Of a stretch of DNA of 64,000 nt, positions 41,247-61,896 are shown in pieces; within the stretch, counting starts at the first letter, position 1, and every line of letters begins with the position of its first letter. The notes under the pieces were generated by a model. It searched no databases and was not told where the DNA came from. It saw only the letters and a list, made by a program, of their open reading frames with translations. The stretch comes from Thermococcus sp. (GTDB lineage Archaea; Methanobacteriota_B; Thermococci; Thermococcales; Thermococcaceae), in the NCBI RefSeq assembly GCF_027063845.1, contig NZ_JAMOQU010000098.1, positions 1-64,000 of the forward strand, given 5' to 3'. Position numbers and translations under genes: made by a program.

Positions 41247-42413
41247 ATGAGGAAGGTTCTGGCATTGCTCGTGGCGACCCTTTTCGTCGCCTCGCTCCTG
41301 TGGGTGAAGCCTGCAAAGGCCGAGGAGACACTGACCGTGTACTCTTACGAGAGCATCGAGCCCTGGATGAAGGAAATCATTCCGATATTCGAGAAGGAGT
41401 ACGGCGTCAAGGTCCGTCTCGTGACGTTCGGCGACGCCGGAGAAGTGCTCAGCAAGCTGATAATCGAAAAGAACAACCCGCAGGCCGATGTCGTCGTCGG
41501 AATCGACAACAGTTACCTTCAGAAGGCACTTCAAGCAGACATTCTAATCCCCTACAAGCCGGAGAACGCGAAGTACATTCCGGAGTGGATTATAAAGGAC
41601 TTCGACCCAACCTTCCATCTCACGCCCTACGACTATGGTGCTATAGCGATAGTCTACAAGAAGGACGTCGTGAAGAACCCGCCGAAGACCTTTGAGGACC
41701 TGACGAAGCCCGAGTGGAAGGGCAAGCTTATCGTCGAGAACCCGCTGACGAGTTCAACTGGGATGGCCTTTTTCCTCTGGACGATTGGCGTTTACGGCGA
41801 CAAGTGGCCCTACTACTGGGAGAAGCTCAAGCAGAACGACGTGATAATTGTCAAGGGTTGGGGCGCCGGCTGGGAGATGTGGGACAAGAACCAGGCCCCG
41901 CTGTTCGTCAGCTACGCCACCGACCCGGCTTACTCGGCCTGCAACTACAACGACACGAGCATAGGGGCAATCTTCCTTAACAACACTGCCTACGTCCAGA
42001 TTGAGGGAGCGGGAATCGTCAAGGGCACCAAGAACCTTGAACTCGCCAAGAAGTTCATAAACTTCCTGATAAGCAAAACCGCCCAGGAGAAGCTCCCGCT
42101 CAACCAGTGGATGTACCCGGTGAACAAGGAGGTCAAGCTCCCGGCCTGCTTCAGCTACGCCCTCAACGTCAGCTCGGCGAAGGTCATCACAATCCCCTCC
42201 GAAGAGCTCGCTAAGAACACAGACAAATGGCTCAAAGAGTGGAGAGCTCTGATGGTTGAGGGCAAGAAGCCCGAGGAAATCTCACCAACGCTGACTTCCA
42301 CCGCCAACGCGAACAAAACCGAGAGCTCAAGCAGTACAGGTTCGAGTATCTGCGGTCCTGGTTTGATAGTCGGACTTGCCATAGTGCCTCTCCTTCTCAG
42401 GAGAAGACTCTGA
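41247..42413 (+). CDS. ThiB-like substrate-binding protein with CGP-CTERM tail
   Basis: The 388-residue surface protein has a signal peptide (VKPAKA, about residue 27), a type II binding-protein fold of the thiamine/iron family (LTVYSYESIEPWMKEIIPIFEKEYG; DVVVGIDNSYLQKA; GWGAGWEMWD; a Cys pair), a Ser/Thr-rich linker and the CGP-CTERM tail (SICGPGLIVGLA, ending RRRL). Thiamine is a good candidate ligand from its similarity to ThiB. No permease or ATPase is adjacent; the fused permease at 16933 could serve it, or the partner genes lie elsewhere. It stops before a T-rich stretch at 42424-42480. Confidence 0.82.
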   Translation: MRKVLALLVATLFVASLLWVKPAKAEETLTVYSYESIEPWMKEIIPIFEKEYGVKVRLVTFGDAGEVLSKLIIEKNNPQADVVVGIDNSYLQKALQADILIPYKPENAKYIPEWIIKDFDPTFHLTPYDYGAIAIVYKKDVVKNPPKTFEDLTKPEWKGKLIVENPLTSSTGMAFFLWTIGVYGDKWPYYWEKLKQNDVIIVKGWGAGWEMWDKNQAPLFVSYATDPAYSACNYNDTSIGAIFLNNTAYVQIEGAGIVKGTKNLELAKKFINFLISKTAQEKLPLNQWMYPVNKEVKLPACFSYALNVSSAKVITIPSEELAKNTDKWLKEWRALMVEGKKPEEISPTLTSTANANKTESSSSTGSSICGPGLIVGLAIVPLLLRRRL

Positions 42414-42548: not shown

Positions 42549-43073
42549 ATGAAGTACTTCGTCGTTGTTTCATACGATGACGATGCCGAGCGAAAGCGCG
42601 TTGATTACCTGCTCTCCAAGTGGGCGGAAAGGGCGGACGTTGAGAAGCCCAGGGGAATGACTTTCATAATCGAAACAGAACAGGAGAAAGAGTTCTTCGA
42701 GGAGCTGTTCTCCAGGATAGAGGGCAACCCTTCAGAGAAAGTCAGGATTTACCGCGTAACCGAGGAATGGCCCGAACTCAGGGAGCGGAGCGCGACGAGG
42801 GAATACCTGCTCGCGGAGGAAGAGGGCTTCGTTCGAAGGTTTCTAGCGTACCTGTGCTCCAAGCTCGGAGGAACGTTCAGTCCAGGAGAAGAAACTTGCG
42901 AGGTCTACACAAGGAAAGGAAGGGGTGTAATCCAGTTTTCCCTTAGAGGAACACCGAGGGGAACCGTTGTCAGGGTCACGGTCTCGGGCTACGGCGAGGT
43001 CGTTGAGTACCTCCTTTCGCGTGTGGATGAAGAGCTAAAACCTCTGGCGGGTGATTCCTATGGGACTCTTTGA
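42549..43073 (+). CDS. Uncharacterised protein, first gene of the kinase/ESCRT-like operon
   Basis: The 174-residue soluble alpha/beta protein starts with a strand pattern (KYFVVVSYDDDAERKRVDYLL) and later has a beta-rich segment (RGVIQFSLRGTPRGTVVRVTVSGYGEVVEYLL). It has no transmembrane helix and no family that I recognise. It overlaps the next gene by 14 bases, so it is translationally linked to the coiled-coil protein. It may be a cytosolic accessory or scaffold of the module; this is only positional inference. Confidence 0.65.
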   Translation: MKYFVVVSYDDDAERKRVDYLLSKWAERADVEKPRGMTFIIETEQEKEFFEELFSRIEGNPSEKVRIYRVTEEWPELRERSATREYLLAEEEGFVRRFLAYLCSKLGGTFSPGEETCEVYTRKGRGVIQFSLRGTPRGTVVRVTVSGYGEVVEYLLSRVDEELKPLAGDSYGTL

Positions 43074-44907
43074 GGAGGGAGACGCGAACTGCGTTAAGAC
43101 ACTCCTCCGCCCCGCTGAGCGCGTTCTGAGGCTCGGAACCGACGTTTGGCGGGAGAGCTACGGAACCCGGGCAGACCTCTGGGGAAGAATCGTCGAAGCC
43201 TACAACCGTTACCAGGAAGGCGAGTGCGGGGACTTTCTGCGCGACCTCGACAGACGCTTCAGGGCCAAGTTTGAGGGAGCCCTTGCGTTGCTCGCCTGGT
43301 CCTTTGAGAGGAACGGAGAAGACTTCGAACCAGCTAAAAAGAGGTTCACCCCCGAGGAGCTGACCGCAATAGAGAGGCTCTTCCGCTACAACGTCTTCGA
43401 GATTTACTCTAAGGACGACGTCATGAAGCTGATAATGCACAGGGACAACGAAGTTCTCTCACTCCTAAGGGAGTACTACTCCTTTGACAGATGGCTCCAG
43501 GAGTTCCTTCAGAGCCCAAGGCACGGCCTTGCCCTCAGGGACTTCCTGAAATCGACGTGGGACTCGTACAAGGAGAAGATAAACCTCGCGATAGCCGAAG
43601 CCACCGCACGTTTCGACTGGTTCAGAGACTTCCTCGAAGAGGCCAAAAAGGAAACAGAAGCCGTTGAGAGGATTTACAGGAAGAAGCTCGACGAGAAGGA
43701 GAAGGAAGTTGAGAAACTCAAGAAAGCGATGGAGCTCATCCGCGAGCGCTGGTACGAGGAGATAGAGAAGGCAAAAGCAGAAATCGAGTCCGCCAAGAAA
43801 GAGGAAATAGAGGCCCTCCGGAGGAAAAACGAAGAGCTCAGAAGGCGCTTTGAGGAGGAAAAGGCCAAGCTCATCGAGGAAATCGCCAGAATGAAGGACG
43901 AGGAGATGAAAGCCAGACTCGAAGAGGAGCTCAGGAAGGCCGAGGAAAGAATGAAGGCAGAGGTCAGGGCCCTTGAGGAGAGGCTGAGGAGACGGGAGCT
44001 TGAGTTAAGGCAGAGGGAAATGGAGCTCAGGAGGAGAGAGCTTGAGCTGTCCAAGGCAGAAGAGGAAGTCCGGAAACAAATAGAGGAAGCCATGAAGATT
44101 GTCGAGAAAGCGGAGAAGGGCTCACGCTTTATCAGGAGCGATGAAGCGAGGATAATGGAGATGAACTTCGCCGGCAGGATTAGGAGCAAGCTGAGCGGCG
44201 AGCTGAAACTCCTCGGAAAGACCTTCAAGGTCGAGTCCGTTGAGGAGAGGGAAACCTTTGACCGCTCCAAGTACGCTGGAAAGCTCGACGAGGTAGCTCT
44301 CAAGAACGTTCCAACCAACGTCGTTATCGAAGCAACGCTGAAGGAGAAGAAGCTCCTCGGAAAGAAGGAGAACATAATCCTGAGGGCAGTTTACCTCTCA
44401 AGGCCAGAGCGCTACGCGGAGTACGGCTTTGATACCGACCCTGTCGAGCTTGCCGAGCTGAACGCGCTCCTCGACGACGCGAGGAGAGAAGAAAGGAGAA
44501 CCGTCCTGCTCGTTGCATCACCAACCGGTTTCGAGAAGAGGATTCTCAGCTACGTTGCCTCCGATGACTTCCACAGGAACTTCGTGGCCGATAGGGTCTC
44601 TCTGCTCCTCCTCGACCTCGGTTCGGGTGAGATGATTCACAACCCCAACGACCCCTACGCGAAGGCCTTTGCCCCGCTCCTCAGGCTGGAGTTCGACGAA
44701 GAACTGCTTGAGAAGGCCAGGAGGTTCCTTCTCAACAGGCTAACCTATAAGCACTACGTCCGCTTTGACGAGGCCATCAGCGAACTCGACCTGCCGGTTG
44801 AAATCGTGAGAAAAGCCTTCCTGTCCCTCGGGAAGGAGGGCTACGTTGCCAAGTATGTGGAGGGCGTTGGATACGTCCTCGTTTCGAAGGAGTTTGGAGG
44901 TGAATGA
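43060..44907 (+). CDS. Large coiled-coil protein with C-terminal winged-helix-like end
   Basis: This protein of about 615 residues has three parts. Residues 1-190 form a helical domain (FLRDLDRRFRAKFEGALALLAWSF and following). Residues about 190-355 form a continuous charged coiled coil rich in E, K and R (RRRELELRQREMELRRRE). Residues 360-615 are globular, with strands such as RTVLLVASPTGF and a final segment (YKHYVRFDEAISELDLPVEIVRKAFLSL) that looks like a winged helix. ESCRT systems also use winged-helix and coiled-coil adaptors, so an adaptor role is conceivable. ATG 43060 is preferred to GTG 43051. It could equally be a kinase substrate or scaffold. Confidence 0.7.
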   Translation: MGLFEEGDANCVKTLLRPAERVLRLGTDVWRESYGTRADLWGRIVEAYNRYQEGECGDFLRDLDRRFRAKFEGALALLAWSFERNGEDFEPAKKRFTPEELTAIERLFRYNVFEIYSKDDVMKLIMHRDNEVLSLLREYYSFDRWLQEFLQSPRHGLALRDFLKSTWDSYKEKINLAIAEATARFDWFRDFLEEAKKETEAVERIYRKKLDEKEKEVEKLKKAMELIRERWYEEIEKAKAEIESAKKEEIEALRRKNEELRRRFEEEKAKLIEEIARMKDEEMKARLEEELRKAEERMKAEVRALEERLRRRELELRQREMELRRRELELSKAEEEVRKQIEEAMKIVEKAEKGSRFIRSDEARIMEMNFAGRIRSKLSGELKLLGKTFKVESVEERETFDRSKYAGKLDEVALKNVPTNVVIEATLKEKKLLGKKENIILRAVYLSRPERYAEYGFDTDPVELAELNALLDDARREERRTVLLVASPTGFEKRILSYVASDDFHRNFVADRVSLLLLDLGSGEMIHNPNDPYAKAFAPLLRLEFDEELLEKARRFLLNRLTYKHYVRFDEAISELDLPVEIVRKAFLSLGKEGYVAKYVEGVGYVLVSKEFGGE

Positions 44908-44908
44908 G

Positions 44909-45493
44909 ATGGGAATACGCGACGTTTTTGGAAGGAAGAGCACCGTCGAGAAGCTCTCACTTAGAGAGCTCCAAGAGGAGGAAATTAGGCTCAGGAACAG
45001 GCTTGAGAGGCTGAAGAAGGACATAAACGCCATAGAGAAGAAGAAAAAGGAGCTCTTCCAGCAGGGCATAGGCGCGGACAAGCTCAAGAAGAAGATGCTC
45101 GCTCAAGAAATCAAAAGCCTCGACATGGAGGAGAAGCTCAAGCTCAAGGAGTTCACGACGGCCCAGAAGCAGTACACCCTCATAAAGAACCTAATCGTCG
45201 TCAAGAAGTACGAGAAGGAGCTCCGCGAGGTGGGGGTCTGGGACAAGCTCAAGAAAGTCGAGCCCGGGGAGCTTGAGAAGGCCCTCATACGAATAAACCT
45301 CGACGGCAAGGAGTTCAACGAGATGGTGGAGAGCCTCAACAGGGTCTTTGAGATGGAGATAGCCGAGTTCGAGGAGGGCGAAGACGAGACCGAGAGGGAG
45401 CTCTTTGAGGCCTGGGCCCAGGTCGAGAGCGGTGAAGCGGAGCCGGACGAGGTTGTGGAGAAAGTTCTGAAGGCTGAGACGGAGGAGGAGTGA
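44909..45493 (+). CDS. ESCRT-III/CdvB-like helical protein, copy 1
   Basis: This 194-residue, almost purely helical protein has the charge layout of ESCRT-III subunits: a short N-terminal segment MGIRDVFGRK, a long basic helical hairpin (about 15-75; KKDINAIEKKKKELF, then LKKKMLAQEIKSL), a second helix pair, and an acidic C-terminal region (from about 145; EFEEGEDETERELFEAW). It is paralogous to the next gene. Its ATG has GGAGGTG upstream and lies one base after the previous stop. The adjacent MIT-bearing Vps4-type ATPase supports the assignment. Alternatively it is an unrelated coiled-coil protein. Confidence 0.7.
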   Translation: MGIRDVFGRKSTVEKLSLRELQEEEIRLRNRLERLKKDINAIEKKKKELFQQGIGADKLKKKMLAQEIKSLDMEEKLKLKEFTTAQKQYTLIKNLIVVKKYEKELREVGVWDKLKKVEPGELEKALIRINLDGKEFNEMVESLNRVFEMEIAEFEEGEDETERELFEAWAQVESGEAEPDEVVEKVLKAETEEE

Positions 45494-45494
45494 C

Positions 45495-46076
45495 ATGGGG
45501 CTCCTCTCAAAGTTTTTTGGACCGAAGAACCCGCTCGACGTTCCCCTCAAGGACCTGCTTGAGAACCAGATGAAGCTCGAAGCCCAGATTGAGAAAATCG
45601 AGCGCGAGCTCAGAGCGATAGAGGCCGAGATAGCGGAGCTCTTTGAGAGGGCAAAGAGAGCCAAGAGCAGGAGCGAGGAGCTCACGATAGCGACAAAGAT
45701 AAAGACCCTCAACAAGCGCAAGAAGAACCTCCAGGCGACGCACGCCCAGCTGAACAAGCAACTGATGCTCGTCAGCAACCTGCTCATAATCAAGGAGAAC
45801 GAGGAGCTCCTGAAGGGAACGCCAACCTGGGAGATGCTCAGGAAAATGTCTCCGAAGGAGCTTGAGGAGAAACTAATCGAGATGGAGCTCGACGCCAGGA
45901 ACTTCAACGAGAGCCTTGAGAAAATGCTCGGCATGACCGACAGAACGATAGGGGTTGAGGACTTTGAGGCCGACGAGGAGCTTGAGGAGATACTGAGCAC
46001 AATAAGGGCGGTCAAAGAGGGCGAGCTTGAACCGGAAGAGGCCACGAAGAAGGTCGTCGAGGAGGAGAAGGAGTGA
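45495..46076 (+). CDS. ESCRT-III/CdvB-like helical protein, copy 2
   Basis: The 193-residue protein starts MGLLSKFFGPKN, close to the amphipathic N-termini of eukaryotic CHMP/Snf7 proteins (MGLFxxxFG type). A basic helical hairpin follows (IEKIERELRAIEAEIAELF; IATKIKTLNKRKKNLQA, about residues 25-85), then LVSNLLIIKENEELL, and an acidic tail with EELEEILSTIRAVK, which resembles a type 1 MIT-interacting helix (leucines/isoleucines every 3-4 residues plus a terminal basic residue). It is paralogous to copy 1. I regard it as the best ESCRT-III candidate of the operon. Confidence 0.72.
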   Translation: MGLLSKFFGPKNPLDVPLKDLLENQMKLEAQIEKIERELRAIEAEIAELFERAKRAKSRSEELTIATKIKTLNKRKKNLQATHAQLNKQLMLVSNLLIIKENEELLKGTPTWEMLRKMSPKELEEKLIEMELDARNFNESLEKMLGMTDRTIGVEDFEADEELEEILSTIRAVKEGELEPEEATKKVVEEEKE

Positions 46077-47696
46077 ATGCCGAGAAGGAGCCTTGAAGAG
46101 GACTTCGTTCGGAGGCTCATCATCTCGATTTTCCTGATTGCCCTCCTTCACGGCTTCGGGTTACTCATATCGCTCTTCATATTCCTTCCGTGGATTGAGA
46201 GGTTCCTGAGAGAGACGGGCTCCTCGAAGCCCTATCCCGGGCCCAAACCTGTTCCGAGGCCGGTGCCTGAAAAACCGCACAGAAGGGAGCTGAATACTGG
46301 AAAATCCCTCAGTGAGGGGCTAATCTTTGAAGCGCCGAAAAAGCTAATCCAGGGAGCTGAGGCGCTGATAAAGGTCGGTTTCAGGAACAGGACAGGGAAA
46401 AGCCTTCGCGTCTCAATAGACCTGTCGGAGCTGGCCCTCTACGGAAAGCTGGAGAGGAGGACCCTCGACCTGTACCTCCTCCCTGGCGAGGAGAGGAGCG
46501 AGTACGTGCGCTTCGTGCCCTCGAAGGTTGGGAAGCACGCGCTTACCGTCCGCGTCCGCTCCGGGCCGTTTATGGGGAAGAAGGCCATTGAAATCGAGAT
46601 TGCCGGGGAAAAAGCCGAGGGCAACGGGTTGGAGGCCCTTCTGTCGAGATACGAGAGGGTCGAGCTAATTGGAGAGGGCGGCTTTGGCAGGGTCTACCGC
46701 GCCCTGAGGGACGGCCGGTGGGTCGCGCTCAAGGTCCCCCACGTCCTCAACGAGAGAACCGGAAAGCTCTTCCTGCGCGAGGTTTCCATATGGCGCGAGC
46801 TGAGGCACGGCAACATAGTGAAGCTCCACGACGCAAATCTGACGCCTTACCCCTACATAGAGATGGAGCTCTGCGACCGGTCGCTCGAAGACCTCGAGAA
46901 GCCCCTCCCGGCGGAGCGCGTGGCCGAGATAGCTTTTGAGGTAGCGGAAGGCCTGAAGTACGCCCATTCGAAGGGTATAATCCACCGCGACCTGAAGCCG
47001 AGCAACGTCCTCCTCAAGGGCTCCAAGCCGAAGATAAGCGACTGGGGGCTTGCGAAGGTTCTGTTCGAGAGCGGAACCACGACGGTAACGGCGATGACGC
47101 CCTACTACGCCTCGCCCGAGCAGATAAGTCCGTCGCGCTTCGGAGGGGTTGACGAGAGAACCGACGTATGGCAACTGGGCGTTCTCATGTACGAGCTCGC
47201 GACGGGGAAGAGGCCCTTCGAGGGAAGCGACTTCGTCGAGGTTGCCGGGAGGATAATCATGGAGGAGCCGCAGAGGCCGAGCGAGCTCAATCCGGAGGCG
47301 GAGCCCCTCGACGGGATAATCCTCCGCTGTCTGAGCAAGGAGAAGGAGAGGCGCTACGGAAGCGTTGAAGAGCTCCAGCGGGATTTGTCGGGAATCCTCG
47401 GCGGGAAGTACCGGGAAGAGCTCAAGAAGAGCGTCGAGCCATCGCGCTCGGCCTACTATGCGGGCCAGCTGTTCCTCCTCCACCTGAGGCTCGGGGACGC
47501 GAAGGAGGCCCTGAAGTACGCGAGGGACCTGCTGAGGTACGCGAGGGGGAGGGAGAGGGAAGAGCTGGAGAAGCTCATCGAACAGATTGAGCTGAGGGTT
47601 GAGGAGGGGCTCCCCGTTCCGAGGGAGCTCGTTGAGAAGGGTGAGGTTGTTGTTCACGGGGTTGGAGGCAATCCGTCCAATTATTCTCATTCTTGA
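46077..47696 (+). CDS. Membrane-anchored Ser/Thr protein kinase 1 (Ig-like domain, TPR-like tail)
   Basis: The 539-residue protein has one transmembrane helix (about 13-41), a Pro-rich linker, a beta-sandwich domain (80-180), a Hanks-type kinase domain (about 190-440) and a helical TPR-like tail (450-525). Kinase elements: GEGGFGRVY loop (199-207), Lys219 in VALKV, Glu235, HRDLKPSN (303-310) and SPEQ. The DFG motif is DWG (322-324). With a single helix, both sandwich and kinase should be cytosolic. ATG 46077 directly follows the previous stop, coupling it to the ESCRT-III-like pair. Confidence 0.9.
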   Translation: MPRRSLEEDFVRRLIISIFLIALLHGFGLLISLFIFLPWIERFLRETGSSKPYPGPKPVPRPVPEKPHRRELNTGKSLSEGLIFEAPKKLIQGAEALIKVGFRNRTGKSLRVSIDLSELALYGKLERRTLDLYLLPGEERSEYVRFVPSKVGKHALTVRVRSGPFMGKKAIEIEIAGEKAEGNGLEALLSRYERVELIGEGGFGRVYRALRDGRWVALKVPHVLNERTGKLFLREVSIWRELRHGNIVKLHDANLTPYPYIEMELCDRSLEDLEKPLPAERVAEIAFEVAEGLKYAHSKGIIHRDLKPSNVLLKGSKPKISDWGLAKVLFESGTTTVTAMTPYYASPEQISPSRFGGVDERTDVWQLGVLMYELATGKRPFEGSDFVEVAGRIIMEEPQRPSELNPEAEPLDGIILRCLSKEKERRYGSVEELQRDLSGILGGKYREELKKSVEPSRSAYYAGQLFLLHLRLGDAKEALKYARDLLRYARGREREELEKLIEQIELRVEEGLPVPRELVEKGEVVVHGVGGNPSNYSHS

Positions 47697-47710
47697 AGGA
47701 GGTGTATCGA

Positions 47711-48874
47711 ATGCCCGTTGATTTGACAGGTCCGCTTATGGCGTCCTTCAGAAGGGCCAAGAAGGCCTATGAAAAGGCCCTGGCCGAGGGCGATTACGAG
47801 ACCGCCAGGAGAAAGGCCCTTGAGTGCGCGAGGATTCTCAAACAGCTCGCCAAGCACGACCCCTACGGTAGGAGTTCCTACCTGGCAAAGGCAAGAAAGT
47901 GGGAAGACCTTGCCAAGGGTCTCGAAGAAGGAAGGATTCCGAAGAGGGAGGTCAAGGTAACCTCAGAGGGAAGCGACGAGGATGAGCTAAGAACCTACGT
48001 CATGGGACTCATGGCAAGGTCAAACGTCAAATGGAGCGACATTGGAGGCCTTGAGGACGTTAAACGACTCCTCATGGAAACGGTGGTCGTCTCGGCACTC
48101 CAGAGGCCGGAAGCGGTTCAGCCCTGGAAGGGTATTCTCCTCTTCGGCCCCCCGGGAACCGGAAAGACCCTGCTCGCTTCTGCTGCCGCCGGAAGTTTAA
48201 ACGCAACCTTCTTCTCGGTCAAAGCCAGCAACGTCCTGAGCAAGTACTTCGGCGAGTCCGCGAAGATAATCTCGGCCCTCTACGAGGTTGCCCGCGAGAA
48301 GGCCCCGAGCATAGTCTTCGTGGATGAGGTAGATGCCCTCACAACCCGGCGCTCCGGCGAGACGAGCGAGGCCAGCAGGAGGATGCTCTCGACGTTTCTA
48401 GCGGAGCTTGACGGCTTTCAGGATAAAGGTAGCGACGTGCTCGTTCTAACCCTCGCGGCAACCAACACCCCCTGGGATTTGGACGAGGCGGTTCTCTCGC
48501 GCTTCCCGAGGAGGATTTACGTCCCTCTACCGGACGAGAAGGCCACGAAGGAGATAATCAAAATCAACACGCGCGGGCTCGACATAAGCAGGCTCGACTT
48601 GGATGCAATAGCTGAGGAGAGCGTCAGGCGCCTGTACTCGGGAAGGGACATCAAGAACCTCTGCCAGGAGGCGGTATGGAACATGATTCGCGAGGAGAAC
48701 AGAGACCTCCACAAGCTCGCCGAGCTCCCATACGAGGAGCTCAAAAAGAGGTCGCTCAGGACAAGACCGCTTGAGATGAGGGACTTCGAGGAGGCCTTCA
48801 AGAAAATTAGGAGCCCGCTGACGAGGCGAGATGTCGAGAGGTACGAGAAGTGGGCGGAGGAGTTTGGGGGATGA
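47711..48874 (+). CDS. Vps4/CdvC-like AAA ATPase with MIT-like N-terminus
   Basis: The 387-residue single-ring AAA ATPase has Walker A GPPGTGKT (146-153), Walker B IVFVDE (201-206), sensor-1 TN (251-252), the arginine finger region SRFPRRIYVPLPD (Vps4 has RRFxxRIYIPLP) and a C-terminal helix DVERYEKWAEEFGG, very like the last helix of Vps4. Residues 8-75 form a three-helix segment (AKKAYEKALAEGDYETARR; YLAKARKWEDLAKGL) with the pattern of MIT domains. No Vps4 beta-domain insert is seen. ATG 47711 follows GGAGGTG; TTG 47693 is unlikely. It should remodel the ESCRT-III-like proteins of the operon. Confidence 0.85.
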   Translation: MPVDLTGPLMASFRRAKKAYEKALAEGDYETARRKALECARILKQLAKHDPYGRSSYLAKARKWEDLAKGLEEGRIPKREVKVTSEGSDEDELRTYVMGLMARSNVKWSDIGGLEDVKRLLMETVVVSALQRPEAVQPWKGILLFGPPGTGKTLLASAAAGSLNATFFSVKASNVLSKYFGESAKIISALYEVAREKAPSIVFVDEVDALTTRRSGETSEASRRMLSTFLAELDGFQDKGSDVLVLTLAATNTPWDLDEAVLSRFPRRIYVPLPDEKATKEIIKINTRGLDISRLDLDAIAEESVRRLYSGRDIKNLCQEAVWNMIREENRDLHKLAELPYEELKKRSLRTRPLEMRDFEEAFKKIRSPLTRRDVERYEKWAEEFGG

Positions 48875-51198
48875 GACGACTTACGGTCGTGATGGTCTTT
48901 CTTCTCCTCTTAAAGCCTGCCCTGGCCGTTACAATCGGGATAGACCTCTCCCACGGCGAGAACCCAAACGGCCTCACACCAGTGACCTATGAGAATCAGA
49001 CGCTCGCCCCGGGAATCCTCGAAACGCTCAGCCAGTACACCTTCGTCTACTTTGGAAACGAGAGCTATCAGGAAGAGCTGGGAATCCGCTGGCTGGGCAG
49101 GTCAATAACTCCGGGCCTGCTGGAAAACGTTGACGTCCTTATAATCGGCCAGCCGACTGCCAACTTCTCAAACACCGAAATCTTGGCCATAAGGGAGTGG
49201 TTCTACTCCGGAGGAAAAGTTCTCTGGGTCGCCGGCGATTCCGACTATGGAAACGGCGTAAAGACTCAGAGGATAGTGAACGGCCTGCTTGAAGCCCTCG
49301 GGGCACCCCTGCGCCTTGACCTCTGCTCCGTTGAAGACCCGGTGAGCAACGCGGGAAGGTCCTACCGTATCATAGCCTACAACAGGCCAAGCAACGATAC
49401 CCCTTACAGGTTGCTCTTAATTCAAGGGGTAACCCATGGTGTCCTCGCGCACGGGCCCGGGCCGGTGGCACTCTTCGTGAACGGCACTTGGAAGCCCCTG
49501 AGGGATGGAAACAAGCCTTCGGGGGTTTACATAATCCTCCGGACGAGCAAAGATGCCCAAATCGTTGAGAACAATGACCCCCTTGGGAAAGCGTACAGGG
49601 CGGGAGAAACCGGGGAATTCCCAATAGCCGCGGCATGGGTGTGGAGTTCAGGCAACAAACGGAGTGTTCTGATAGTCAGCGGTGAGACGCCCGTTGGAGG
49701 CTACACCCCCATGTGGGTCAGCCAGTACTACGGTATCAAGCTCGACGGGCCAACCTTTGTCTCGAACGTAATCCACTGGGGCGTTACCGTTGCCTCACGT
49801 TCCCCGGAAAACCGGAGCTCACCATCAACAACGTTCACGACGACCGCATCTCCAAAGAACAGCCAGATTGTCCAGCCGTCGAGTTCCCGGCCTAAATCAA
49901 CAACGGGTTTAGACGACGTAGAAAAGAGCTCGAAGGTACCAGTCCTCCCTCTCGCGCTCGGAGGCATTCTGGTGCTCCTTGTCATTGGGCTTGCCCTCCT
50001 GAAGGGCAGGAGCGGGGGTGAAAAAAGGGCCAACCTCAACGTCCCCGGATTTCCGCCGGAGCTCTTGGACAGGTACGAGCCTCTTGAGTTCCTCGGGGAG
50101 GGCGGTTTTGCCAAGGTCTTCAAGGTCAAACGCAAAAAGGACGGCAAAACAGTCGCCCTAAAAATCCCGCACCTAACTGAGAAGTCCAGGAAATCCTTCA
50201 CCAGAGAAGTTCGGGCCTGGAGCCTGCTGGAGCATCCGAACATAGTAAAGCTCTACCGTGCGGAGGAGAAGCCGATACCATACCTCGAGATGGAGTTCGT
50301 TGAGGGTGCTGAGGTTGATGGAAAGCTCGTTAGAACGCTCGAGGAACTACCAAAGCCCGTTGATGAGGAAACTGCCCTAGAACTCATCAGAGGCATCGCA
50401 GAGGGATTGAAGCACGCGCACTCGAAGGGCATAATCCACAGGGACTTAAAGCCCGGAAACATCCTCCTGAAGGCCAACTTAACGCCAAAGATAACCGATT
50501 GGGGATTAGCCAAAATCGGAACACATTCAACGACCACCACCTCGGGGGTAACGGTTCTCTACGCCGCGCCGGAGCAACTTGACCCTGAAACCTACGGGCG
50601 CACCGACCACAGGACGGACGTCTACCAGCTCGGCCTAATCTTCTATGAACTCCTGACAGGAAAACTGCCCTACGGGGGGAACAGCCCCGCAAGTGTAATC
50701 GCAAAGATTCTCAACCCAGAAACCAAGCCAAAACCGCCGAGTGCCGTTAGGCCAGAGCTTGCGAAGTACGACGGGCTCTTCGAGAAGTTGCTGGCGAAGA
50801 GGAAGGAAGACCGCTACGGAAGCGTTGAGGAGTTCCTGGAGGACCTCAAGCTCTTGAGGAGGCTTGAAGGAGAAAGGACGGACCTCAAGGGCCAGATTGA
50901 GGAGCTCAAGAAAACCATCCAAGTAACGACGGACCGGTCGGAGGTTCAAAGGCTCGTCAGGAAACTCGTTGAAGGACTCGGAAGGAACGCGGTCCTTTCG
51001 GCGAGGCTCAACGACAAGGCAGGCCTGATTAGTGCGCTTGAGGAGCTCAAGGAGTTCACACGGGAAGAAAGGGGAGAGGTTGAGCGGGCGATTGAAACCG
51101 TCGAGCTCCTCCTAAGGGAGGGTCTGCCGATTTCCCCGGAACTCGTTGAGAGGGTGGAGGTTCTCGTTGACAGGATTAAACGGGAGGTGGAGAGATGA
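48871..51198 (+). CDS. Receptor Ser/Thr kinase 2 with GIFT-like extracellular sensor
   Basis: The 775-residue protein has a signal peptide (cleaved after PALA, about residue 19), an extracellular domain (20-310) homologous to the secreted protein at 20460-21557, a Ser/Thr-rich stalk, a transmembrane helix (about 356-379) and a cytosolic kinase with GEGGFAKVF (409-417), Lys431, HRDLKPGN (523-530) and DWG (543-545), then a helical tail. It is the membrane-tethered, signalling version of a surface protein. Its start overlaps the ATPase stop (ATGA). Kinase-coding DNA is nearly identical in blocks to that of kinase 3. Confidence 0.92.
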   Translation: MRRLTVVMVFLLLLKPALAVTIGIDLSHGENPNGLTPVTYENQTLAPGILETLSQYTFVYFGNESYQEELGIRWLGRSITPGLLENVDVLIIGQPTANFSNTEILAIREWFYSGGKVLWVAGDSDYGNGVKTQRIVNGLLEALGAPLRLDLCSVEDPVSNAGRSYRIIAYNRPSNDTPYRLLLIQGVTHGVLAHGPGPVALFVNGTWKPLRDGNKPSGVYIILRTSKDAQIVENNDPLGKAYRAGETGEFPIAAAWVWSSGNKRSVLIVSGETPVGGYTPMWVSQYYGIKLDGPTFVSNVIHWGVTVASRSPENRSSPSTTFTTTASPKNSQIVQPSSSRPKSTTGLDDVEKSSKVPVLPLALGGILVLLVIGLALLKGRSGGEKRANLNVPGFPPELLDRYEPLEFLGEGGFAKVFKVKRKKDGKTVALKIPHLTEKSRKSFTREVRAWSLLEHPNIVKLYRAEEKPIPYLEMEFVEGAEVDGKLVRTLEELPKPVDEETALELIRGIAEGLKHAHSKGIIHRDLKPGNILLKANLTPKITDWGLAKIGTHSTTTTSGVTVLYAAPEQLDPETYGRTDHRTDVYQLGLIFYELLTGKLPYGGNSPASVIAKILNPETKPKPPSAVRPELAKYDGLFEKLLAKRKEDRYGSVEEFLEDLKLLRRLEGERTDLKGQIEELKKTIQVTTDRSEVQRLVRKLVEGLGRNAVLSARLNDKAGLISALEELKEFTREERGEVERAIETVELLLREGLPISPELVERVEVLVDRIKREVER
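50059..50522 (+). repeat. Kinase-domain DNA shared with 55127-55590 (copy 1)
   Basis: Three blocks, 50059-50169, 50284-50367 and 50443-50522, are identical or nearly so (one mismatch noted in the first) to the co-linear blocks in the next kinase gene, including third codon positions, while the sequence between them diverges. Both regions are 464 bases long. This points to recent gene conversion between the kinase genes. Confidence 0.85.
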
Positions 51199-51959
51199 GG
51201 CTAATACTGCCCGAAAGCCCACACATGGAGTCCAGCGGGGCCGGAACTGACTTCGTTTACGGGATAACCCACGTTGGGGGACGGAAACACAACGAGGACG
51301 GCCTGCTCATCATGAAGCTCCCCGACGGCTACCTGCTCGCAGTCGCGGACGGACTGGGCGGTCACAACGCCGGGGAAGTCGCTTCTAGGCTGGCCCTGGA
51401 AACCCTTGCGGGGGTCTTTGAAAGGGAGTACGTTGAAGGCCTTGAAGAAGACCTTCTCGCGATTCTCCTGAAGAAGGCCCACGAGGTTGCCCACTCCATT
51501 GTTAGAGAACGGGCAAGGGGACCACTTGAGGGAATGGGGACGACCCTCGTCTCGGCTGTAGTTAGGAGAAGGACCGTTATCGTTGCCAACACCGGCGACA
51601 GCAGGGCGTACCTGGTTTCCGGGGGGAAACTCGTCGCGAGGACGCTCGACCACTCACCACTTCAGGAGCTCGTTCTCATAGGGCAGGTCAGCGAGGAGGA
51701 GGTCATGTACCACCCGCTCAGGAACAGGGTGAGCTCAGCCATTGGAAGGCACCTAATGGTTGACCTCTACCGCTGGGAAGCCGGACCCGGCCACATCCTC
51801 CTTCTCAGCACGGACGGTCTTCACGACTATGTCTCAAAGGAAGAAATCCTGCGGGCGCTCATCCCTGGGAAAACGGCACGTGACCTCGCCAAAACCCTCA
51901 TGGAAAGGGCCCTGACTGTCACTGAAGACAACGTAACGGTGGTGGTGTGGAGATGGTGA
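51195..51959 (+). CDS. PP2C-family Ser/Thr protein phosphatase
   Basis: The 254-residue protein has all PP2C metal-site motifs: KHNEDG (31-36), VADGLGGH (50-57), GMGTTLVSAVV, ANTGDSRAYL, LLLSTDGLHD and EDNVTVVV near the end. It is cytosolic (no signal or membrane helix) and removes phosphate from Ser/Thr, so it is the natural antagonist of the three kinases in this operon. It overlaps the kinase genes on both sides by four and seven bases. An in-frame ATG at 51225 is an alternative start. Confidence 0.94.
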   Translation: MRLILPESPHMESSGAGTDFVYGITHVGGRKHNEDGLLIMKLPDGYLLAVADGLGGHNAGEVASRLALETLAGVFEREYVEGLEEDLLAILLKKAHEVAHSIVRERARGPLEGMGTTLVSAVVRRRTVIVANTGDSRAYLVSGGKLVARTLDHSPLQELVLIGQVSEEEVMYHPLRNRVSSAIGRHLMVDLYRWEAGPGHILLLSTDGLHDYVSKEEILRALIPGKTARDLAKTLMERALTVTEDNVTVVVWRW

Positions 51960-54900
51960 ATGCAAAGGCTATGCTCGTTATCGTATTGCTATTATCTTCC
52001 CTCTTTCCGCTAAGTCCAACCCTTGCTCAACCTATCCAGGGGGATGAGCTTAAAATCGTGTACCTTGCTGCCCAGGGTAGTCTCTTTATGGGTGTCTTCA
52101 ACCCGTCCCCGAGCGGAATGACCGACGTTTACACCCACCGCATCTGGTACTTCCTCAACGACCCGCCCTACGTGATGGGACCCGACGGAAGCTATCACAG
52201 CTACCGCTGTCAGCTTGTCAGTGTCAATTACAACGTTCAGGTTCCGGACGATGCCGTAATCTGGAACGACACCCTCGGCGAGTGGACCTCCCCATACGCC
52301 GGCAGAACAGCCAAGAGTGCCGTCACCTGGAAGTGCGGTCTCGGAACCTGGGTTGACGGTCAGAAGATAACCCTCGCCGACTACTTATTCGCCTACGCAA
52401 TGGACTGGGAATGGAGCCATGAAGGGGGAGCGTACTACGACCAGAGCTGGAGCGCCAGCGTGGCCGGCAAGCTCCAAGGAATCTACGGTCTCGAGGTGAA
52501 AGCCGTCACATCTGATTACGTTGAATTCACGGTCTACCAGGATTATGCAGTTCCATACAGCAGGTGGGCCACCGCCGTTAACTACGTTCCATACCCTGGG
52601 TTCCCCTGGCAACTCTATTATGCAACCTCCGAGCTCGTGGCAAGGGGATACGGCGGCAAGATGTTCTCGTGGAGCTCGAATCCCACCAATGGGTACCAGC
52701 TCAACCTGATAGACGAGGAACAGATGGAGTACATTTCGGGCATGCTCTCAAGGCTAAAGGATGAAGCTCCTATTCCGGGCCCCCTGTCGGAGCTTTCAAG
52801 CGTTCTCGGAAAATGGGGTCTGGACTACTACCACTCCGGCCTTCAGGATGCAGAAAGCGGGTACTCGGCCCTGATAGGCTGGATTTCAAACCACAAAAAT
52901 GCCCTCGTGACCAATGGACCGTACTACGTTGATGACTACGACGCTGAGGATATGAAGCTCGTCCTCAAGCTCGCGAACAACAGAAGGGTCGGGTTCCCGG
53001 ACACCGTTAACGGTAAGACCCTTCCCTGGGAGCCGTACTGGAGAGAGATTGACGTTTACGGCGTTCTCAACGACTATACGGCTATTCTCTCCGTTGCTAA
53101 AGGCGAGTACGACCTGTACTGGTTCACCAGGCCGTATAGTACTTTGTCCAGTGTGGTTCAGGAATACGGCAAGAACATCAACCTGATTAAGGCTATCTTC
53201 ACCTGGTGGAGCATCAACCTCAACCTTGCAGGAGACTCCACGACAGGCCTCGTGGAAACCTCCAACGGAACCTGCTTTAACCCGTTCGCGCTCCGTGAGG
53301 TCAGGTTCGCCCTTAACTGGCTCATCAACAGGCAGTACATCGTCAGCCAGGTCCTCCAGGGAAGCGGTGCTCCAATCTACGGCCCAAATCCAACGGGCCA
53401 AGTTAACGCACACGAGAATTACGTAACCGTTGCGAAGGCTATGGGAATAACCTCTCAGGGTGACGAGGCCTACGCCATCAAGATGATTGACGAGGCCATG
53501 ACTAGGGCATCCTCGGAACTCTCAGACTTAGGACACACCCTTGAGAAAAGGGACGGTGTCTGGTACTTCGACGGTCAGCCGGTTACCGTGAAGATTATTG
53601 CTCGTATCGAGGACGAGAGACTTGATGAGGGCAAGTACGTTGCTCAGGTACTCCAGAAGGCCGGCTTTAAGGTTGACCTCCTCCAGTGGCAGAGGAGCCA
53701 GGCCAGCAGGATGGTTTACAGTAGCGACCCCAAGGAGCTTCAGTGGCACGTTTATACAGAGGGTTGGGTCGTCAGCGGAATTCAAGACATCACGGACCTC
53801 GCCTGGGACTTCTGGTACTACGGCAGTTACGTCGCTCCAAATTGGGGTTCCAACTACCACAACCCAGTAACGGTCAGAGACGTTCTCAACGTTATCGCCA
53901 GCGGTGACGTTGCCAGGTTCATCAGCGAACTAAACCTCAAGTACTACAACACTCCGAATAAGCTCAAGCCTCTCCTCGACTGGACAGGCTACGACCTTGC
54001 TAACTTACTCGCCTACGCTAAGTGGACAAAAAACGGATGGACAGTGAGCGTATGGAGCCTTGACCAGTTCTGGGACCTCTACAAGCTCGCCTACGCACTC
54101 CACCTCTACAACGCCCCCAGAATCTACACGGCCGAGGTGTGGAACTTCTACATCACCAACAAAAGGGTGAAAGTTGGAATCCCCGACCCAGTTACAGGAC
54201 TTGGAAGCTTCCTTGCCGTCCGTTCGCTTGAGCCCGCTGAAACATCGGTGTCAGGGGGAACAACAGGAACAGAAACAACGACTTCAGCATCTCCACAGGT
54301 GCAGAATGATAGGGGAACAATCGAAGTAGTCTCCACACCTGCAGGCGCTGAGGTTTACGTTGACGGAGGCTACCAGGGAATAGCACCAATAAACGTCAGT
54401 GTATCCCCCGGAACTCACAGGGTTCAAGTGAAGATGCCTGGCTATGAGGAGTACTCGACGACGGTCACGGTAGATGCCGGAAAAACCGTTGTTCTAAACG
54501 TAAACCTGGAACCCAAATCCGGAACCCTCGTAGTTGACTCAACACCCTCGGGAGCCAGCGTTTATGTGGACGGTACCTACCGCGGGACTACTCCCCTGAC
54601 CGTTGAGCTACACCCGGGCCAGCACACGATAAACGTGACTCTCGAAGGCTACAAGCCATACTTGGCAACGGTCAATGTTCCTCCAGGTGAAACCGTAAAG
54701 ATAACGGCGAAGCTTGAGAAGAAAATCGCGACGGGGACGGTTTGGATAAATTCTCAGCCCACAGGAGCGGACGTCTACGTTGACGGCACGTGGCGTGGGA
54801 CAACACCGCTGACGCTCACCCTTCCACCGGGTACCCACACGATAGAAATCCGGAAGGAGGGCTATCAACCGACCAGAAAAACGGTTGAGGTTGCCCCAGG

Positions 54901-56290
54901 AGAAGAAAAGAAAATAACCCTAACCCTCGCGGTGGTGACCTCTCAGGATACCCAACCGAAAACAACCAGCGAATCCACGCCGGCCAACGCAGTTCCAAGG
55001 AAGGCCATCGCAGTGGTTCTGGCCGTGTTCATCCTTGTTGGGGCAGTGCTCCTCCTCAAGCGCTCGCGCTCTGGAGGAAAGACCCAAAATGAGCCCTCCA
55101 AGGGTTCAATTGAGGGCTTCCCGGCCGAGCTCTTGGACAGGTACGAGCCCCTTGAGTTCCTCGGGGAGGGCGGTTTTGCCAAGGTCTTCAAGGTCAAACG
55201 CAAAAAGGACGGCAAAACAGTCGCCCTAAAAATCCCGAGGATTGACGAGAAAACCAGCAAGACCTTCCTCCGTGAGGTTTCAACGTGGTTCCAGCTCAAC
55301 CACCCCAACGTCGTCAAGCTCTACGACGCGGACATTTTACCCGTTCCCCACCTCGAGATGGAGTTCGTTGAGGGTGCTGAGGTTGATGGAAAGCTCGTTA
55401 GAACGCTCGAGGAACTACCAAAGCCCGTTGATGAGAAAACCGCACTGGGACTCATAAAGGGCATTGCGGAAGGCCTAAAACATGCCCACTCAAAAGGCAT
55501 TGTTCACCGCGACTTAAAGCCCGGAAACATCCTCCTGAAGGCCAACTTAACGCCAAAGATAACCGATTGGGGATTAGCCAAAATCGGAACGATGAGCTCG
55601 GGAAGGAGCGTGATGGGCTACACCCCCCTCTACGCCGCGCCGGAGCACCTGATGCCGAGCAAGTTCGGAAACACCGACCACCGGACAGACGTATGGCAGT
55701 TGGGGACGATTTTCTACGAGCTACTGACCGGCAGGGTTCCGTTTGAGGGCTACACATACGAGGAGGTCTTTGGCAAGATAACCGACGAGAACTACCGCCA
55801 TAAGCCGCCCTCCGATTTCAACCCGGCACTGGCAAAGTACGATGGGCTCTTCGAGAAGTTGCTGGCGAAGAGGAAGGAGGACCGCTACAGAAGCGTTGAG
55901 GAGTTTCTGGAAGACCTCGAGAAGCTCAGGGAGAGCGAGATAAGGAAGCGGGAGCTCGAGTTTCGGGTTGAGGAGCTGAAGAAAACCCTCGCAAGAAGCG
56001 TAGAGGCTCTGAAGAGGAGCAAGACCGCCGAGGAAATCAGGGAGAACAGCAGGCTCGTAGTCCAAACTCTCTCGAAGCTCGCTTTAGCCTACGCGGAGCT
56101 CAACAGGAAGGCAGAGCTTCTCAACACCCTGAGCGACCTGAAATTCTATACAACCCAGCACAGAGAGGAGCTTGGGAGGGCAATTGAAGCCCTTGAGCTC
56201 ATGATTAAAGAAAACCTGCCCGTAAGAGAGGACTTCGTTGAAAGGCTCAAGGTGCTCCTTCACGAAATAGAGCGTGAAAACGGGGTGTGA
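51953..56290 (+). CDS. Receptor Ser/Thr kinase 3: oligopeptide-binding domain, three PEGA repeats, kinase
   Basis: The protein of about 1445 residues has a signal peptide (SPTLAQ, about residue 24), a complete SBP_bac_5-type oligopeptide-binding domain (25-760; DAVIWNDTLGEWTSP, TLADYLFAYAMDWEW, ALNWLINRQYIVSQVLQGSG), a Thr-rich linker, three PEGA repeats (about 789-995; PAGAEVYVDG, PSGASVYVDG, PTGADVYVDG), a transmembrane helix (about 1019-1039) and a kinase with GEGGFAKVF (from 1071), HRDLKPGN (Asp 1187) and DWG, plus a helical tail. An importer-type ligand-binding protein is thus wired to a kinase, with no transporter genes nearby. ATG 51953 with GGTGGTG is preferred to GTG 51947. Confidence 0.93.
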   Translation: MVNAKAMLVIVLLLSSLFPLSPTLAQPIQGDELKIVYLAAQGSLFMGVFNPSPSGMTDVYTHRIWYFLNDPPYVMGPDGSYHSYRCQLVSVNYNVQVPDDAVIWNDTLGEWTSPYAGRTAKSAVTWKCGLGTWVDGQKITLADYLFAYAMDWEWSHEGGAYYDQSWSASVAGKLQGIYGLEVKAVTSDYVEFTVYQDYAVPYSRWATAVNYVPYPGFPWQLYYATSELVARGYGGKMFSWSSNPTNGYQLNLIDEEQMEYISGMLSRLKDEAPIPGPLSELSSVLGKWGLDYYHSGLQDAESGYSALIGWISNHKNALVTNGPYYVDDYDAEDMKLVLKLANNRRVGFPDTVNGKTLPWEPYWREIDVYGVLNDYTAILSVAKGEYDLYWFTRPYSTLSSVVQEYGKNINLIKAIFTWWSINLNLAGDSTTGLVETSNGTCFNPFALREVRFALNWLINRQYIVSQVLQGSGAPIYGPNPTGQVNAHENYVTVAKAMGITSQGDEAYAIKMIDEAMTRASSELSDLGHTLEKRDGVWYFDGQPVTVKIIARIEDERLDEGKYVAQVLQKAGFKVDLLQWQRSQASRMVYSSDPKELQWHVYTEGWVVSGIQDITDLAWDFWYYGSYVAPNWGSNYHNPVTVRDVLNVIASGDVARFISELNLKYYNTPNKLKPLLDWTGYDLANLLAYAKWTKNGWTVSVWSLDQFWDLYKLAYALHLYNAPRIYTAEVWNFYITNKRVKVGIPDPVTGLGSFLAVRSLEPAETSVSGGTTGTETTTSASPQVQNDRGTIEVVSTPAGAEVYVDGGYQGIAPINVSVSPGTHRVQVKMPGYEEYSTTVTVDAGKTVVLNVNLEPKSGTLVVDSTPSGASVYVDGTYRGTTPLTVELHPGQHTINVTLEGYKPYLATVNVPPGETVKITAKLEKKIATGTVWINSQPTGADVYVDGTWRGTTPLTLTLPPGTHTIEIRKEGYQPTRKTVEVAPGEEKKITLTLAVVTSQDTQPKTTSESTPANAVPRKAIAVVLAVFILVGAVLLLKRSRSGGKTQNEPSKGSIEGFPAELLDRYEPLEFLGEGGFAKVFKVKRKKDGKTVALKIPRIDEKTSKTFLREVSTWFQLNHPNVVKLYDADILPVPHLEMEFVEGAEVDGKLVRTLEELPKPVDEKTALGLIKGIAEGLKHAHSKGIVHRDLKPGNILLKANLTPKITDWGLAKIGTMSSGRSVMGYTPLYAAPEHLMPSKFGNTDHRTDVWQLGTIFYELLTGRVPFEGYTYEEVFGKITDENYRHKPPSDFNPALAKYDGLFEKLLAKRKEDRYRSVEEFLEDLEKLRESEIRKRELEFRVEELKKTLARSVEALKRSKTAEEIRENSRLVVQTLSKLALAYAELNRKAELLNTLSDLKFYTTQHREELGRAIEALELMIKENLPVREDFVERLKVLLHEIERENGV
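55127..55590 (+). repeat. Kinase-domain DNA shared with 50059-50522 (copy 2)
   Basis: The co-linear blocks 55127-55237, 55352-55435 and 55511-55590 match kinase 2 almost base for base. The first block covers the P-loop to the catalytic Lys, the third the HRD-to-DWG catalytic segment. Substrate-facing stretches between them differ. Confidence 0.85.
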
Positions 56291-60119: not shown

Positions 60120-60920
60120 TTGTGGGCCATTTACAAAAAGCAGTTCGCAGAATGGCTCTCTGACCAAATAACGCCAGTAGTGAAGAAAGACTACCTTAAA
60201 GCGCTCGAAGTTTTCTTTGGTCGGCACTCATTAAAGACGTACGAGGACCTAGAAAAGGCCCTCAAGGCGGAGAACTACAACGACAGAGTAGTGAAAGGCC
60301 TCCGCAAGTTCACAACGTTCCTCGAAGAAAAGCACGTGATTGACTACCACCTCGCAGACGACTGGAGAAGAATCATGAAAATCAAGCGGAAGTCAGGAGT
60401 CCGGGCCATTTTCGTGACTGACGAGGAAATCAGAGAAGCATACAAAGCCATTAAAGAGCGCGGTGAAGAAAAGCTCACGCTCTTTAAGCTTTTGGTGTTC
60501 TCAGGAATAAGACTGACTCACGCGGTCCAGCTGGTGAACACCTTCAACTGGCAGAACGTTTACATCGTGAACGAGAAGGTCGCCAGATACCCACTGTTCG
60601 CATTCTCCCGCGGCAAAAAGAGGGGCTTTTGGGCCTATGCCCCAAAGGAGTTCTACGAGCTCCTTGAGCCGATGAATGTCAACTATGTGAGCGCCAAGGA
60701 TTGGGTGAGTCATGGAAAGGTTTCTGCGAACACAATCCGGAAGTGGCATTACACTTTTCTCATTCGTCAGGGCGTTCCTGCCGACATCGCTGACTTCATC
60801 CAGGGACGTGCAAGCCAGCGCGTTGGGGCGACTCACTACCTGAACAAGACCCTCCTCGCCGACGAGGCGTATTCTCGGATTGTGGATGAGCTAAAGAAGG
60901 TTCTGGAGGGTTCAAAATGA
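60120..60920 (+). CDS. SSV-type tyrosine integrase, C-terminal part int(C)
   Basis: The 266-residue fragment contains a SAM-like/core-binding region and the catalytic domain with the active-site Arg in SGIRLTHAVQL, a later Arg/Lys/His cluster RKWHYTFLIRQG and the nucleophile region GRASQRVGATHYL. The reading frame is open back through the tRNA sequence to 59994 without an ATG, as expected when integration within the integrase gene separates int(N) from int(C). The TTG at 60120 is only a nominal start. The fragment is probably not expressed as an active enzyme until excision restores the gene. Confidence 0.88.
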   Translation: MWAIYKKQFAEWLSDQITPVVKKDYLKALEVFFGRHSLKTYEDLEKALKAENYNDRVVKGLRKFTTFLEEKHVIDYHLADDWRRIMKIKRKSGVRAIFVTDEEIREAYKAIKERGEEKLTLFKLLVFSGIRLTHAVQLVNTFNWQNVYIVNEKVARYPLFAFSRGKKRGFWAYAPKEFYELLEPMNVNYVSAKDWVSHGKVSANTIRKWHYTFLIRQGVPADIADFIQGRASQRVGATHYLNKTLLADEAYSRIVDELKKVLEGSK

Positions 60921-61186
60921 TGAAGTGGAAGGAGCTCCCGCGCTTTCTCACTTTAGTCGTTGCAGTGCTCGCAGGATTGGGAGTTCAGGCTCGCTTGGTA
61001 CAGGTAGGTCATCAGGAGTTCATTTATGGCTATGTGCTTGGTGCTCTTGTTTACCAGACTCTCAGCGACCCGCAATGGCTCAGAAAAATTACTGAACCAG
61101 ACGAATTCGTTAGCTTGATGATGTGGGTGTTCTTTCCTTTCGTGGCCACGCTTGCTACAATGTGGAGGATTATGATGGAAGAATGA
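60917..61186 (+). CDS. Small membrane protein of the integrated element
   Basis: The 89-residue protein has three hydrophobic segments (LTLVVAVLAGLGV; YGYVLGALVYQTL; MWVFFPFVATLATMW). ATG 60917 overlaps the integrase stop (ATGA). The function is unknown; small membrane proteins are common in archaeal spindle-shaped viruses. Confidence 0.65.
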   Translation: MMKWKELPRFLTLVVAVLAGLGVQARLVQVGHQEFIYGYVLGALVYQTLSDPQWLRKITEPDEFVSLMMWVFFPFVATLATMWRIMMEE

Positions 61187-61203
61187 AGGGAGGTGAGCGG
61201 AGG

Positions 61204-61371
61204 ATGGCCCGGGAAAAGTTGAATGGTACTGGTGCTTTTGTGTGGGCTTTTAGCATTGATAGGGAAACACATCGCATGATTAAAGAGCTCTCTAAGAGCC
61301 TTGGTCTTAACAATGACTCGGCTGTTGTCAGGATGGCAGTAAGAAGGCTCTACAAGGAGATAAAGGCTTGA
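61204..61371 (+). CDS. Ribbon-helix-helix DNA-binding protein
   Basis: The 55-residue protein has an N-terminal strand (AFVWAFSID) and two helices (RETHRMIKELSKSLG and NDSAVVRMAVRRLYKEI), the RHH/CopG-type fold. It probably represses element genes, perhaps from the promoter-rich gap that follows. ATG 61204 follows GGAGGTG with an 8-base spacer; an in-frame ATG at 61183 overlapping the previous stop is an alternative. Confidence 0.75.
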   Translation: MAREKLNGTGAFVWAFSIDRETHRMIKELSKSLGLNNDSAVVRMAVRRLYKEIKA

Positions 61372-61528
61372 GTTCCTTCAATCTTTTATAATTGCTATAA
61401 ACTCGCTATAAAGCCCCTTTCTAATATTCTTAAATATCTTTGCCGTACTCTCTATTTTAGGGCATCTTGGGCCTTCCTCCGCTCAAATCAGTTCTCTCAA
61501 ATCATCATTGCCTGCAAGAGGTGGTAGT
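61372..61528 (+). promoter_or_regulatory. Promoter/operator region inside the element
   Basis: This AT-rich gap of 157 bases holds several TATA-like stretches (CTTTTATAATTGC, CTATAAACTCGCTATAAAGC, TTCTTAAATATC). The tandem GCTATAAA half sites, 14 bases apart, may be operators for the RHH protein. The gap ends with the strong ribosome-binding site GAGGTGGTAGT. Confidence 0.45.
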
Positions 61529-61720: not shown

Positions 61721-61896
61721 AGCCCAAAAGCCTCGCTCAACTGCTTCTTTTCGTGCTAATAGTGGCCTTTTGGTACAAGATATCTTGGCCCCTGATGACA
61801 GATGACAAAGGAGGCTTTAGCGGTCGGCGCTCTTGGCGGGCTGACTCTACATTGGGCGCTGACGAACAAGGGGAACAGGAACATCGTGCTCATTGA
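61717..61896 (+). CDS. Small single-span membrane protein of the element
   Basis: The 59-codon ORF starts in an ATGA overlap. Its first 28 residues form a convincing membrane helix with a short polar end (LLLFVLIVAFWYKISWPL). The remaining half overlaps the next gene in another frame and looks less protein-like, so the real end is uncertain. Confidence 0.4.
   Translation: MKPKSLAQLLLFVLIVAFWYKISWPLMTDDKGGFSGRRSWRADSTLGADEQGEQEHRAH

Follow-up and report, generated by a model that had tools for sequence, protein, structure and literature searches.

What does a membrane kinase encoded among the putative membrane-remodelling genes of a Thermococcus sense, and why does its extracellular domain also occur as a free surface protein in the same genome? 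The window analysed here, the whole 64,000-nucleotide stretch at positions 1 to 64,000 of Thermococcus sp. contig NZ_JAMOQU010000098.1 (assembly GCF_027063845.1), encodes both forms: a receptor Ser/Thr kinase of 775 amino acids, kinase 2 (48871-51198, plus strand), and a free surface protein of 365 amino acids (20460-21557, minus strand). The favoured reading, to which we give a probability of roughly 60%, is that kinase 2 is a single-pass receptor kinase of an endosomal sorting complex required for transport (ESCRT) locus carrying a captured GIFT sensor, and that importer ligand-binding proteins serve the kinases of such loci as exchangeable sensors. As read from the sequences, this reading draws on full-domain homology, a fold match, a link to an importer, branching inside the free proteins and conservation of invariant residues.

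BLASTP aligns residues 8-338 of the free protein with residues 1-315 of kinase 2, spanning the entire ectodomain and the signal region, with 170 of 331 columns identical (51%, E 1e-108). A sequence-only reading of the same DNA had proposed that one sensor domain exists in two full-length matching forms, one ending in a CGP-CTERM anchor and the other in a transmembrane helix plus kinase. This proposal holds: the open reading frames lie as described, both motifs quoted in that reading occur in both proteins, and the alignment covers the whole domain, excluding a match confined to a short motif. A genome-wide search recovered two full-length copies of the domain, kinase 2 and the free protein, with 27 kb between them, and no third. 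In the tree the two copies in the window each cluster with their own orthologues, and a recent gene conversion between them was rejected on this ground.

Kinase 2 comprises a signal peptide, the GIFT ectodomain (residues 19-316; 48925-49818, plus strand), a transmembrane helix at about residues 355-378 (49933-50004, plus strand; VPVLPLALGGILVLLVIGLALLKG), a kinase domain (residues 402-652; 50074-50826, plus strand; PF00069, E 6.4e-48) and a C-terminal helical tail. The ectodomain is delimited by BLASTP to the free protein and takes its fold from the aligned family, while an equal transmembrane helix is present in the orthologue of genome G022. The kinase domain contains the motifs VALK, HRDLKPGN, DWG and APE; its Pkinase domain, catalytic Lys (in VALK), HRDLKPGN and DWG identify it as a Hanks-type Ser/Thr kinase that, judging from these motifs, is apparently active. 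The free protein combines a signal peptide, the GIFT domain (residues 29-338; 20544-21473, minus strand) and a CGP-CTERM surface-anchoring signal (residues 345-364; 20466-20525, minus strand), the latter identified by TIGR04288 (E 5.8e-8, 32.7 bits, cut-off 21) together with an N-terminal signal-like region recognised by inspection.

The shared domain was modelled with AlphaFold (AF2) at a predicted local distance difference test score (pLDDT) of 93.3 and a predicted template-modelling score (pTM) of 0.93, and the predicted model was compared with known folds by Foldseek and VIA-align. The best structural match is the IFT52 N-terminus (E 1.7e-7, Z 19.3, root-mean-square deviation 2.7 over 214 aligned residues, target 228), followed by OST48 (Z 17.4) and Wbp1 (about 15), with OST48/Wbp1 matches ranging from 14 to 17; site-1 protease, GATase1-like and ThuA-like proteins match at lower scores. 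IFT52 was also found by sequence (E 7e-5) when the PDB was searched with a profile of 60 relatives. Pfam matches are weak and partial, with ABC_transp_aux reaching E<=0.01 in 59 of the 60 family members, and the free protein stays below the gathering scores of IFT52_GIFT (18.6 against 27.2 bits), DUF4350 (28 against 30.4) and ABC_transp_aux (29.5 against 34.7). Because all of these scores fall under cut-off, the GIFT assignment is one of fold, not of curated Pfam membership: on the predicted model, the domain has a GIFT-type fold, a GATase-like Rossmann arrangement close to the IFT52 N-terminus and OST48. The earlier suggestion of a GIFT/DUF4350 fold is thus borne out at the fold level.

Within this model, the invariant or nearly invariant residues D13, H16, E18, G83, Q84, P85, D113-D115, H188 and S268-E270 (model numbering) are positioned after the C-terminal ends of central strands, where folds of this type would usually bind their ligand. 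Sugar binding by GIFT domains has been proposed (PMC7226087). The same genome also encodes a 699-residue protein (L131:5628-7727) that combines a CBM96 carbohydrate-binding module with a GIFT/OST48-like domain passing the Pfam IFT52_GIFT cut-off. By analogy, these two observations hint at, and do not prove, a carbohydrate ligand for the shared domain. The GIFT domain could instead serve only in dimerisation or cell-envelope attachment, with no small ligand, in keeping with the IFT52 GIFT domain working within an assembly (PMC10191852) and with a free protein sequence in which the nucleophile-cysteine motif of class I amidotransferases is not seen. The placement of the invariant polar residues on the usual ligand side argues against such a purely structural role, as does the linkage of the GIFT gene to an importer, and we consider it improbable.

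That importer linkage is a conserved feature of the family. The free GIFT gene heads a conserved Thermococcaceae locus, all on the minus strand in the window, in which it is followed by a solute-binding protein (18927-20390; SBP_bac_8/1/6), a fused permease of an ATP-binding cassette (ABC) importer, PhnU2/ModB-like (16933-18813), the importer ATPase (15855-16931), a DUF447 protein (15245-15832; PF04289) and, as the last gene, a calcineurin-like phosphoesterase with CGP-CTERM (13168-15171; PF00149), the permease, DUF447 and phosphoesterase genes being conserved neighbours. The locus adjoins an aminoacyl-tRNA synthetase-like gene in many genomes, and the importer adjoins the free gene in 49 of 49 free CGP-CTERM copies, the set used for the invariant-column analysis. 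Among 94 genomes, GIFT and the importer permease are both present in 79, both absent in 11, including the nine genomes of genus g3, and found one alone in 4 (Fisher p 8e-11, a value from related genomes and thus not an independent-sample test). The name phosphonate importer (2-aminoethylphosphonate, PhnS2/T2/U2) was rejected, as the NCBIfam scores of 50/392.75, 388.7/457.7 and 131.7/593.25 bits all lie under cut-off. The solved binding proteins nearest to the importer's solute-binding protein have pyridoxal phosphate or iron as ligands. In genome G002, an importer-locus surface protein carries two tandem GIFT domains and CGP-CTERM (L055:7477-10269).

The fusion of GIFT to a kinase is confined to 3 of the 94 genomes (G000, G022 and G025); long GIFT open reading frames elsewhere (600-930 amino acids) were rejected as kinase fusions and consist of GIFT, an extension and CGP-CTERM, one of them with tandem GIFT domains. 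This distribution bears on the suggestion of the sequence-only reading that the two forms may compete for one ligand, in which case the free protein would be a decoy that titrates it away from the kinase. In favour, both forms are predicted to lie on the outer face and have nearly all invariant residues in common. Against it, only three genomes have the fusion, while 79 have GIFT together with the importer, so that acting as a decoy cannot be how the free form originated, and this role appears distinctly improbable.

Capture of the ectodomain from the free proteins accords with the tree of 72 domains, in which the three kinase ectodomains form one clade (support 100/100) inside the free importer-locus copies, nested in enclosing clades with free copies of 21 rows (98/97) and 41 rows (100/98). 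Placing the kinase ectodomains outside all 38 free copies of the larger clade is rejected (delta lnL 26, approximately unbiased test p-AU 0.032). Because the kinase ectodomain branches inside the free importer-locus copies, the tree supports a single capture of the kinase 2 ectodomain from an importer-locus surface protein, in a Thermococcus subgroup. Local duplication is a plausible route, since in 8 of the 14 genomes measured, which are related and not independent, a distance of 27-63 kb separates the importer locus from the ESCRT locus. Moreover, among the 84 columns invariant in the 49 free copies, the kinases retain 93-95%, at an overall identity of about half, and the third paralogue 69-76%; the ratio of nonsynonymous to synonymous differences (pN/pS) is 0.17-0.23 in the ectodomain against 0.44-0.68 in the adjacent linker, values that indicate purifying selection on the kinase 2 ectodomain. 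Because nearly all invariant residues of the free protein are kept in the kinase, it is plausible that both bind the same or a similar ligand. The sequence-only reading was therefore sound on the two-form relation and the fold, and plausible on a shared ligand; it had missed the importer locus of the free protein, the ESCRT locus of the kinase, the one-time capture and the parallel offered by kinase 3.

Kinase 2 is embedded in an operon-like series on the plus strand. This begins with a probable arCOG08177-like protein, named from position and size and without a Pfam match (42549-43073), and a probable arCOG09748-like coiled-coil protein (43051-44907); both genes are conserved in ESCRT loci, and the two family names come from PMC10936438. 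Two homologous ESCRT-III-like coiled-coil proteins follow, protein 1 (44888-45493) and protein 2 (45495-46076), the second with a weak, below-cut-off Snf7 match (E 0.0048) that is full-length (residues 23-174). Next come Ser/Thr kinase 1 with an N-terminal transmembrane segment (46077-47696; PF00069, E 2e-47) and a Vps4-type AAA ATPase (47693-48874; PF00004 and PF09336 Vps4_C above cut-offs), a type matched in 49 of the 94 genomes; downstream of kinase 2 lie a PP2C phosphatase (51195-51959; PF13672, E 1.2e-16) and receptor kinase 3 (51947-56290). 'Main'-clade archaeal ESCRT loci contain Ser/Thr kinase (STK) and Ser/Thr phosphatase (STP) genes (PMC10936438), and by its Vps4 with Vps4_C, three kinases and PP2C, which match that description, the kinase 2 locus is read as a 'Main'-type locus. 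Directly before the operon stands a solitary CGP-CTERM solute-binding protein (41247-42413), as also in G025. Across Thermococcales ESCRT loci (L081-L100), the number of kinases and PP2C phosphatases and their ectodomains vary strongly, including PEGA repeats, beta-propellers and a macro domain. At the far end of the window, 60120-64000 is occupied by an integrated element with an archaeal phage integrase (PF16795) and then pT26-2-like genes, running past the window (L130).

In the mechanism that we propose, the captured ectodomain would still bind what the free protein binds, or a closely related ligand, which by analogy with other GIFT domains may be carbohydrate-like; binding would change kinase 2 activity across the membrane, the adjacent PP2C would reverse this effect, and the kinase targets would be proteins of the ESCRT locus. 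Alternatively, the ectodomains might determine which surface proteins or extracellular cargo enter ESCRT-driven vesicles, with the kinase marking those selected. A ProX-like binding protein of Methanobacteriales ESCRT loci has been proposed to pick cargo (PMC10936438), and vesicles and cell membranes of Thermococcus contain OppA as a major protein (PMC10117752); against this, a kinase domain in the same protein and a PP2C encoded next to it point to signalling, and T. kodakarensis vesicles are unaffected by disruption of Vps4 homologues (unpublished, reported in PMC10117752). Such a cargo-receptor role is very doubtful.

Sensing by captured importer proteins finds a parallel in receptor kinase 3, a protein of 1447 amino acids with an OppA-like (SBP_bac_5) ectodomain, three PEGA repeats, a transmembrane segment and a kinase domain. 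The first gene of an Opp importer operon on contig C19 of this genome (L128:5860-8361) encodes a free CGP-CTERM paralogue of the kinase 3 ectodomain, 66% identical to it, and by the equivalent mechanism kinase 3 would sense oligopeptides. A remnant of 137 amino acids of a third OppA-like copy lies at L129:7912-8325. Kinase-3 ectodomains are placed among free CGP-CTERM OppA-like proteins, and a kinase of G067 represents an independent capture of such a domain. In G043, one ESCRT-locus kinase (L085:13340-16468) carries a Bmp/PnrA-like ectodomain, whose free, lipoprotein-like homologue (L127:7901-9187) heads an ABC operon and is circularly permuted relative to it, and a second (L085:8294-12100) carries an OppA-like ectodomain in an order permuted relative to kinase 3; genus g5 has free permuted OppA-like proteins of about 930 amino acids. 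Kinase 3 also bears on another way of using the GIFT domain, in which the kinase 2 ectodomain would take the place of the free GIFT protein at the importer, docking with its permease or its solute-binding protein, and would report transport activity rather than free ligand. The conserved partnership of the free GIFT protein with one ABC importer suits this idea, as does signalling from a solute-binding protein to a kinase in bacteria, in GlnH-GlnX-PknG (PMC6069109); in kinase 3 the fused part is the actual ligand-binding protein, which is a better fit to direct binding, and sensing of the importer is rather unlikely. Under the favoured reading of direct ligand binding, these kinases probably sense nutrients offered to the cell. 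A wider proposal, put forward tentatively at somewhat less than even odds, is that archaeal ESCRT loci hold a modular receptor-kinase platform that repeatedly captures importer surface proteins (GIFT once, OppA-like at least twice, Bmp-like once), through which extracellular nutrients would set ESCRT membrane remodelling via Ser/Thr phosphorylation.

Several points weigh against the reading of captured, ligand-binding sensors. The kinase-clade stem is long (0.68 changes per site), making changed specificity possible, and the conserved residues may serve folding, not binding. Placement of the kinase ectodomains outside the nearest 21-row clade alone is not rejected (p-AU 0.26), so that, together with the rejection for the 38 free copies, the direction from free protein to kinase is supported, with weaker support for the exact donor. 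Gene order is the basis for the activity of the kinase, its targets and its connection to ESCRT function. A fold search of the ESCRT-III-like proteins gave CHMP3/CdvB2 among its matches, none significant, and a sequence profile gave no confirmation either, leaving the ESCRT-III identity of both coiled-coil proteins consistent but not proven. Finally, the ectodomains of many ESCRT-locus receptor kinases, and of phosphatases there, consist of PEGA repeats or beta-propellers or are of unidentified type, in place of importer proteins, and importer capture is therefore recurrent, not universal.

The sensor domains point to their own ligands. Each has a free twin encoded by the first gene of an importer operon, and study of the binding protein of that importer can therefore yield candidates, namely oligopeptides in the case of kinase 3 and the substrate of the conserved importer in that of kinase 2. 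This bears on what archaeal Ser/Thr kinases sense and on what controls kinase-associated euryarchaeal ESCRT systems, and because some Thermococcus species have working genetics, the proposed link from nutrient through kinase to ESCRT is directly testable.

Kinases in archaeal ESCRT loci and kinases controlled by binding proteins are already known kinds. The open-access literature yielded no description of archaeal receptor kinases with binding-protein ectodomains, nor of ESCRT-locus receptor kinases built from importer surface proteins with a free twin in the same genome. Binding-protein ectodomains are familiar from Venus-flytrap receptors, including BvgS-type histidine kinases and the natriuretic peptide and metabotropic receptors. 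These likewise recruit a binding-protein ectodomain to a transmembrane signalling protein; however, they carry other signalling domains and have no ESCRT link, and GIFT is not a flytrap fold. Known GIFT domains (the IFT52 N-terminus, OST48/Wbp1 and GldG) share the fold of the domain described here, which in contrast belongs to archaeal surface proteins, where it is paired with a CGP-CTERM anchor or with a receptor kinase. The 'Main'-clade ESCRT loci (PMC10936438) resemble the present locus in setting membrane Ser/Thr kinases and PP2C beside Vps4, ESCRT-III-like and coiled-coil proteins, and PEGA repeats, found here in kinase 3, stand in the domain key of that paper; the paper differs in describing Ig-like repeats and a C-terminal PCI-type domain, and its main text does not mention GIFT, 'solute' or 'sensor' and does not describe captured importer ectodomains on kinases. 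In GlnH-GlnX-PknG of Actinobacteria (PMC6069109, PMC9769921), an importer-type solute-binding protein similarly controls a Ser/Thr kinase, but there the system is divided among three proteins, a binding protein, a membrane protein and a kinase, whereas the Thermococcus proteins unite the binding domain and the kinase in one chain.

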